Positions 38,152 through 42,903 of a DNA stretch of 64,000 nucleotides are shown here, piece by piece. The notes beneath the pieces were generated by a model. The model saw nothing but the letters and a program-made list of their open reading frames with translations. It had not been told where the DNA came from and made no database searches. Origin of the DNA: Bdellovibrionales bacterium (GTDB lineage: Bacteria; Bdellovibrionota; Bdellovibrionia; Bdellovibrionales; UBA1609); the NCBI GenBank assembly GCA_019637855.1, contig JAHBUX010000001.1, positions 457,337 through 521,336 on the forward strand, in the 5' to 3' direction. Made by a program: the position numbers and the translations under genes. Within the stretch, counting starts at the first letter, position 1. Each line of letters starts with the position of its first letter.

Positions 38152-39531
38152 TTAAGTGCGTGGTCGAGTGGATTTTTCCTGAATACCAATGCGGCGAATA
38201 AGTTTGTCCTTAAGACCCGGCGGAAGGTGGATTTCATAACCACGAGGAAGCATCCCGTTGCGCTTGAGCACGCCCCGCAGGTCTAAATTGTATTTGAGCA
38301 TCTCATTTTGAGACAGTCCCACTACTCTAGTGAGGAGACGCGCATTGGTTCGCCCACTAAGTTTCAAGGTTTCGCGTTCTTGAAGAGGTTCGCGTGGCAG
38401 CTCTTTAAACAGCAGTTCGCTATACTTCTCCGCATATAGAGCGGCTAAAAAACAGGTGTAGAAATTCGATGAGGCGAAACGAAAGGCACCGCGATGGTAG
38501 CGTTCGATGATTGTCGGGAGTTCGCGTGAACCGGCTCCCTTCATCGCTTTTTGCGTATTGCCGATGCCATTGTTGTAAGAGGTCAGAGCCAGGGGCCAGC
38601 TGTCGACCGCACGGAAGTAGGAGCGCAAGAGCCGTGCGGCCGCATTGGTAGCTTTCAGCGGTGAGTTACGCTCGTCGATCTGTTCACTCACGATCATATA
38701 GGATTTGCCGGTCGTAGGCATGATCTGCCAGATGCCGCTGGCGCCTACTTTCGAATAGGCCATTTCGTTAAAACTGCTTTCGACAAAGGGCAAGCGCGTG
38801 ATTTCGGTAGGTAAACCGTGACGCTTGAATTCCTCTTCCATGTACGGAAGGTAGCGACTGCTGTTGACTAAGCCGCGTTCGAAGAAATCTTTTTGTCCCA
38901 ACTGACTGCGCACTTCGGTCGCCGCTAAACGCAAAACAGCCTTACGCGGACCGGGCAGCACGGAGAGCTTTTCAAACAGCTCGCGTTCCAGCGTCGGTAA
39001 TTGGTCATAGGTTTTTCGTTTGGCTAAACGCTGAAGCGCCGTGCGGATCTCAGCGAGTTGCATCTTGGCCATTTTGCTTGCGCGCTCCCGACGTAACCAT
39101 AGAGGTCCTTTGCCATTCAAGATGGTGGAAGTGCCGTCAAACACGCGGTACACGATCCAGGGATAGCGTTGATGATGGACGATGTGGTGTGCATCACCAT
39201 AGCGGGTGTAAATGTCGAACCAAAATGAGGTGCGTTCTTTAAGGCCTTCGGGAATGGCAAATTCAGGATTGATGCGGCTACCGAAATCGGCCAGCACCTT
39301 GGCTTTAATGGCTCGCCATTTCTTCTCTTCTTCCGGGGAGCGTGCCTCGCTGCGCAGAGGGGCCGGCGCATCATGTGGTCGTCCCATTAGGGGGAAGAAT
39401 TCCGTATCGGTCAATATGGGTGTGCCTTCTGGCACCAGGTCAAGAGGTGTCGCCGCGTGCGCGAAGGCGCTAATCAAAACAAAACTAAGCAGTAGGAAAC
39501 TGCGTTCGGACGCACCTTTTCTCATTCGCAT
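38152..39531 (-). CDS. mltD: membrane-bound lytic murein transglycosylase, MltD-like
   Basis: 459 residues. Signal peptide (FLLLSFVLISAFAHA), then a Glu/Arg-rich N-terminal region, an SLT goose-lysozyme domain with catalytic Glu in FVESSFNE, and family motifs GASGIWQIMP and LALTSYNNG. A C-terminal LysM-like segment follows (LLTRVVGLSQNEMLKYN). It cleaves peptidoglycan glycan strands to 1,6-anhydro ends, in growth or in prey-wall remodelling. Start chosen at ATG 39531; 39525 is also possible. Divergent from the histone gene. Confidence 0.9.
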   Translation of the reverse strand: MRMRKGASERSFLLLSFVLISAFAHAATPLDLVPEGTPILTDTEFFPLMGRPHDAPAPLRSEARSPEEEKKWRAIKAKVLADFGSRINPEFAIPEGLKERTSFWFDIYTRYGDAHHIVHHQRYPWIVYRVFDGTSTILNGKGPLWLRRERASKMAKMQLAEIRTALQRLAKRKTYDQLPTLERELFEKLSVLPGPRKAVLRLAATEVRSQLGQKDFFERGLVNSSRYLPYMEEEFKRHGLPTEITRLPFVESSFNEMAYSKVGASGIWQIMPTTGKSYMIVSEQIDERNSPLKATNAAARLLRSYFRAVDSWPLALTSYNNGIGNTQKAMKGAGSRELPTIIERYHRGAFRFASSNFYTCFLAALYAEKYSELLFKELPREPLQERETLKLSGRTNARLLTRVVGLSQNEMLKYNLDLRGVLKRNGMLPRGYEIHLPPGLKDKLIRRIGIQEKSTRPRT

Positions 39532-39670
39532 GATGCAGAGCAATACAAGGGCCAGCGCGCGTAACTATTAGATGAATATTATTAGGATCTTACAGTCAGT
39601 CGGCAGCCCTAAAACGTCACCCCTGACCTAAATCCAGCAAAAGGCCGCGGCGTGCCCATCTGCAAATAAC

Positions 39671-39698
39671 TTCACTTTTAAATTCGAATAGGTTTAAT
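39671..39698 (+). promoter_or_regulatory. candidate sigma-70-type promoter for the histone gene
   Basis: TTCACT (39671-39676), 16-base spacer, TTTAAT (39693-39698). Matches 4/6 and 5/6 of the consensus; transcription would start near 39705, about 24 bases before the ATG. Surroundings are AT-rich. Confidence 0.4.
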
Positions 39699-39728
39699 CT
39701 GAGGTGCGTTTTTTGAGTGGAGGATTAC

Positions 39729-39923
39729 ATGGCAGATGTTCTGGTCGTTACCAGCAAAGTGAAGAAGTTCATCAAAGAAAAGGGCGGTTGCAACACATCC
39801 GCAGAAACTATCGACGTATTGAGCAAGGCCGTTGAGCGCCTTTGCCAAAAAGGCGTTGATAGCGCTAAAGCCGACGGCCGCAAGACCGTAATGGCTCGCG
39901 ATATCGTTATCGATCATCTCTAG
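39729..39923 (+). CDS. bacterial histone (HBb / Bd0055-like)
   Basis: 64-residue single histone fold: helix 1 (TSKVKKFIKEKG, about 8-19), long helix 2 (SAETIDVLSKAVERLCQKGVD, about 24-48), loop with the canonical GRKTV (50-54) and helix 3 (ARDIVIDHL, 56-64). The GRKTVMARDI segment matches archaeal and eukaryotic histones at the L2 DNA-contact loop. It has no tails, and is nearly the same length as HBb of B. bacteriovorus, an abundant chromatin protein reported to bind or bend DNA unlike nucleosomal histones. Two cysteines (21, 39) are present. GGAGG lies 5 bases before the ATG and a strong terminator follows, so it is monocistronic. Confidence 0.93.
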   Translation: MADVLVVTSKVKKFIKEKGGCNTSAETIDVLSKAVERLCQKGVDSAKADGRKTVMARDIVIDHL

Positions 39924-39931
39924 TAGATTCG

Positions 39932-39961
39932 AAGCCGGAGATCGACAGGTCTCCGGCTTTT

Positions 39962-39966
<5 letters not shown>
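39932..39966. terminator. intrinsic terminator after the histone gene
   Basis: AAGCCGGAGA pairs with TCTCCGGCTT (10 perfect pairs, 8-base loop), followed by TTTTTTATTTT. It ends the histone mRNA and lies against the stop of the convergent rarD gene. Confidence 0.92.

Positions 39967-42903
<2,937 letters not shown>

Follow-up and report, generated by a model that had tools for sequence, protein, structure and literature searches.

An hbb-type histone gene, predicted orthologue of Bd0055, in a Bdellovibrionales genome

Results

Organisation of the histone locus

The window is a 64,000-nucleotide stretch of contig JAHBUX010000001.1 (assembly GCA_019637855.1), and positions are counted from its first letter. 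The 64-residue open reading frame predicted at 39729–39923 is present there and is accompanied by the following features:

38152–39543, minus strand: SLT-domain lytic transglycosylase, divergent neighbour (Pfam SLT, E = 4.5e-23)
39662–39700, plus strand: putative promoter region, tentative (block common to two close orthologues)
39719–39723, plus strand: Shine-Dalgarno sequence GGAGG, with the ATG 5 nt further on
39729–39923 including the stop codon, plus strand: hbb, predicted 64-aa bacterial dimer (α3) histone, Bd0055/HBb orthologue (open reading frame, homology and fold)
39931–39960, plus strand: intrinsic terminator with a 13-pair stem, 4-nt loop and T-rich tail (folding and shuffles)
39962–40861, minus strand: EamA-domain transporter (RarD-like), convergent neighbour (Pfam EamA, E = 3.7e-19)
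40831–42897, minus strand: putative ligA, NAD-dependent DNA ligase, conserved convergent neighbour (open reading frame)

The hbb reading frame extends from an ATG at 39729 to a TAG at 39921–39923 (64 codons). The strong ribosome binding site ascribed to it in the original prediction is borne out by the well-placed GGAGG, and a Shine-Dalgarno-like motif precedes 75 of 76 hbb orthologues. An in-frame GTG at 39717, which would add four residues, was rejected as the start, the extension not being needed. The reading frame at 40831–42897 we take to be ligA, a name given by recognition of its sequence.

A 10-pair terminator had been proposed downstream of the gene, and a perfect core of 10 Watson-Crick pairs (AAGCCGGAGA/TCTCCGGCTT) was found, extending to 13 when adjoining pairs are counted. 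The segment folds with a z-score of -4.85, a stability equalled by none of 200 shuffled sequences, and a hairpin followed by TTTT occurs within at most ~107 nt of the stop codon in 58 of 76 orthologues, whereas this pattern follows 44 of 225 positions picked at random from these loci. The proposal of a terminator-bounded transcript holds at the 3′ end but not at the 5′ end, where there is a divergent gene instead of a terminator. With the upstream gene divergent and the downstream gene convergent, the layout is that of a single-gene transcript, which agrees with the stand-alone gene originally proposed; hbb would probably be the sole gene of a transcript that starts at a promoter in the region between hbb and the transglycosylase gene and stops at the hbb terminator. 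The putative promoter block (approximately 39662–39700) was identified by aligning the window with two related loci (L084 and L085), of which L085 matches just the first part, and a consensus scan returned no sigma-70 consensus promoter for hbb. No Rfam families or tRNAs were found in the 64-kb window.

Identity and predicted fold

Searches with profile models place the protein among the histones, with a match to Pfam CBFD_NFYB_HMF slightly above the cut-off (E = 2.2e-4) and one to the NCBIfam archaeal-histone model below its cut-off. Using phmmer, the HBb structures 8fvx (E = 1.1e-30) and 8cmp (E = 1.2e-30) were matched over residues 1–64, and the alignment to Bd0055/HBb is ungapped with 56 of 64 residues identical (88%), a value shared by the B. 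bacteriovorus copy at locus L038. An AlphaFold2 monomer built from a 39-sequence alignment (pLDDT 88.4, pTM 0.63; five models, 69 to 88) has helices at residues 2–19 and 25–48 and a short turn at 56–58, equivalent to the short α2 and one-turn α3 of HBb, and the best five Foldseek matches in the PDB, the full set with E below 0.001, are all HBb (probability 1.00; TM-scores, 0.80–0.89). The complete histone fold claimed for the protein is therefore supported by the Pfam and PDB matches and by agreement with the modelled helices, and the GRKTV placed between helices 2 and 3 is found as GRKTVMARD at residues 50–58, after the second helix, which provides an RKT motif with an RD clamp (R51–D58).

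Several features point to the bacterial dimer class, including the shortened α2 with an α3 of 3–4 residues in the AlphaFold2 model, sequence clustering with HBb/Bd0055, and a Ser-Lys pair and lysines in α1. All of the DNA-contact and fold residues described for HBb are retained, save for the conservative substitution I35V. The close resemblance to HBb/Bd0055 that was first recognised by eye is thus given a figure by the alignment, with the predicted fold and gene order in agreement.

Conservation and gene order

Matches to the window histone (E ≤ 0.001) occurred in 58 of 59 related genomes and in all 48 that are near-complete, and a public scan returned 80 loci labelled nearly all as Bdellovibrionales or allied groups. 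Residues V7, S9, K10, N22, T23, T27, L31, S32, A34, A46, R51, K52, T53, V54, R57, D58 and I59 are invariant in the 39-sequence alignment. Amongst 80 distinct orthologues, S9, K10, R51, K52, T53, R57 and D58 are each present in all 80, and K12 and K13 in 79. Differences from the three closest orthologues are concentrated at third codon positions (17/18, 26/28 and 17/21), implying strong purifying selection on hbb.

A ligA gene downstream of and convergent with hbb was identified at 73 of 80 related loci, including B. bacteriovorus kdesi (L038), where hbb, ligA and gatCA are consecutive; in 54 loci, the ligA match ends ≤400 nt from the hbb stop codon. The convergent order of histone and ligA (window 39729–42897; L003–L082) often continues with gatC and gatA. 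The same arrangement of hbb beside ligA, gatC and gatA as in the Bdellovibrionales occurs in a record titled Streptomyces griseus (L064), which is probably a mislabelled metagenome bin. The conserved hbb–ligA order offers a positional test of orthology, and the window gene lies at the same genomic position with one gene inserted, the EamA/RarD-like gene that separates hbb from ligA in this genome and that was not found next to hbb in the other fetched loci.

Taken together, the 88% identity, HBb-like fold, position relative to ligA, conservation, and third-position substitutions identify the gene, as judged from sequence, as hbb, a bacterial dimer α3 histone orthologous to Bd0055. The best explanation of the whole, held with high confidence, is that this hbb was inherited vertically as the orthologue of Bd0055 and encodes an α3-truncated dimer histone. 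The result fits the view that histones belong to the vertically inherited core genes of the Bdellovibrionales, and a well-described family gains one further sequence. The gene is an ordinary one, the type member of its family having already been crystallised with and without DNA.

Cysteine residues

Both cysteines noted in the original prediction, at residues 21 and 39, were confirmed. Of 80 distinct orthologues, 78 have Cys39, as does Bd0055 itself, while position 21 is most commonly Cys (n = 49), followed by Met (n = 26), the residue in Bd0055. The suggestion that Cys39 lies near the dimer interface stands in so far as it adjoins L38, a dimer-interface residue of HBb (PMC11317129), but the residue is not peculiar to this protein. 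The cysteines were rejected as a lineage novelty, and an argument built on them is weak because Cys39 is family-wide and relatives carry a cysteine at position 21 more often than any other residue. The terms ‘cysteine’, ‘C39’ and ‘disulfide’ are absent from the main text of the Bd0055 paper PMC11317129, and ‘cysteine’ appears in PMC10627809 in one methods line only. It is improbable, though conceivable, that Cys39 serves the histone dimer as an element sensitive to redox state or metal, a point not covered by the Bd0055 studies; if so, the window protein, with a Cys21 near loop 1 that is shared by most relatives, would suit a test of its role.

Other histones in this genome and its relatives

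Elsewhere in the window genome, a second histone is encoded (L002:1192–1692; 166–191 aa depending on the start). It shares 43% identity with the window histone over its C-terminal part, and its N-terminal part carries C11, C14, C27, C32, C42, C46, H50 and H56 (numbered from MQSESS). Allowing for an offset of one, seven of these eight Cys/His residues are spaced as in the ZZ histone profile; the exception is the final C4-site cysteine, at 46 where 44 is expected. Though no Pfam family was matched, by its predicted architecture (zinc finger plus α3 histone domain) the protein is a ZZ histone. Long open frames resembling it match in many relatives.

Eight relatives from three genera with small genomes (1.4–2.0 Mb; 83–94% complete) possess an hbb-like gene with a 65–75 aa product (L135–L142, also L124–L128 and L160–L163) in which KLK(T/V) replaces GRKT and R51, R57 and D58 are lost. 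In five of the eight genomes, this RD-clamp-less gene and ligA converge in the arrangement seen for hbb. In the others, ligA is upstream on the same strand (L125/L138), the contig ends right after the gene (L127), or ligA was not found within 6 kb (L128). In those five of the eight genomes that were also searched with the window histone, it was the sole match (E ≤ 0.001), although a canonical copy could lie in a missing part of these incomplete genomes. Judged by its position convergent to ligA, in at least five genomes the gene is hbb at its usual site rather than a separate paralogue. These genes form a natural set that could reveal what the otherwise invariant RD clamp is needed for.

Some relatives (L114, L116, L118, L120, L122 and L123) encode, away from ligA, a small histone of a third type, in many cases bearing an N-terminal tail rich in lysine. 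It is possibly FtF-like, and was not found in the window genome.

Discussion

Predicted function and alternatives

Bd0055 ranks 12th of 2,125 proteins in abundance, is enriched in the nucleoid and is probably essential (PMC10627809, PMC11317129). By analogy, the window histone is most likely abundant as well. The original prediction of high expression is plausible from these Bd0055 data, but codon usage does not set hbb apart: with one ribosomal-protein region as the reference and the mechanically called reading frames of the window as the comparison, its codon adaptation is 0.715 against a window median of 0.663, and a score this high is attained by 28.6% of window-gene pieces matched to it in length.

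Bd0055 is dimeric and binds DNA without sequence preference (PMC10627809, PMC11317129), though these two studies disagree on its binding mode, one finding that dimers coat straight DNA as a sheath and the other that they bend it. Bending in solution is favoured here because it is backed by ring closure, topology and simulation in addition to crystals. Extrapolating from Bd0055, two window-histone monomers would pair via α2, and loops 1 and 2 (T23, S24, A25; K52, T53, R57) would grip the DNA backbone at the minor groove, as would K12 and the start of α1 (T8, S9, K10). The dimers would bend and compact the chromosome at any sequence without nucleosome-like wrapping, since a long α2 and α3 are missing, as are, by a class-level report, the tetramer-forming residues. 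Three HU/IHF-family proteins are encoded in the window genome, so the histone would act in addition to HU/IHF.

An FtF α3 histone, forming tetramers that wrap ~60 bp in the manner of Leptospira perolatii HLp, would belong to the same α3 superfamily, and HLp (9qt0) is indeed a structural match, albeit a weaker one (E = 1.7e-2, 34% identity). HBb is much closer (88% identity) and is a dimer in solution (PMC11317129), and bacterial dimers are reported, at the level of the class, to be without the FtF tetramer residues (PMC11390915). Membership of the FtF group was rejected on the far greater nearness to dimeric HBb, leaving a wrapping tetramer extremely unlikely. That the protein is a site-specific regulator, or another histone-fold protein of CBF/NF-Y type rather than a global chromatin protein, might be read from the CBF/NF-Y in the Pfam family name, but the gene is near-universal in relatives, the backbone-contact residues are conserved, and DAP-seq of Bd0055 revealed no sequence preference (PMC10627809, PMC11317129), all of which make this reading very unlikely. 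By analogy with Bd0055, the window protein is most likely a dimer present in high amounts that bends DNA irrespective of its sequence.

Comparison with known histones

The closest known system is HBb/Bd0055 (PDB 8fvx, 8fw7, 8cmp, 9ezz, 9f0e), which shares with the window protein its length of 64 residues, RKT motif, RD clamp, Cys39, short α2, one-turn α3, and a convergent ligA. Eight substitutions separate the two (from Bd0055 to the window protein: E3D, L14F, Q20G, M21C, I35V, Q37R, L40Q and E44D), and the loci differ in the RarD-like gene between hbb and ligA in the window genome. ZZ histones, of which Bd3044 is likely the B. bacteriovorus member, have an α3 histone domain of similar kind preceded by an N-terminal zinc finger, whereas the window protein is a 64-aa reading frame with neither extension nor extra domain. 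HLp of L. perolatii (FtF) has the α3 fold in common at 34% identity, but is a tetramer wrapping ~60 bp. Archaeal HMfA/HMfB share the histone fold and the RKT...D motif with the window protein, and differ in their longer α2 and α3 and in forming hypernucleosomes.
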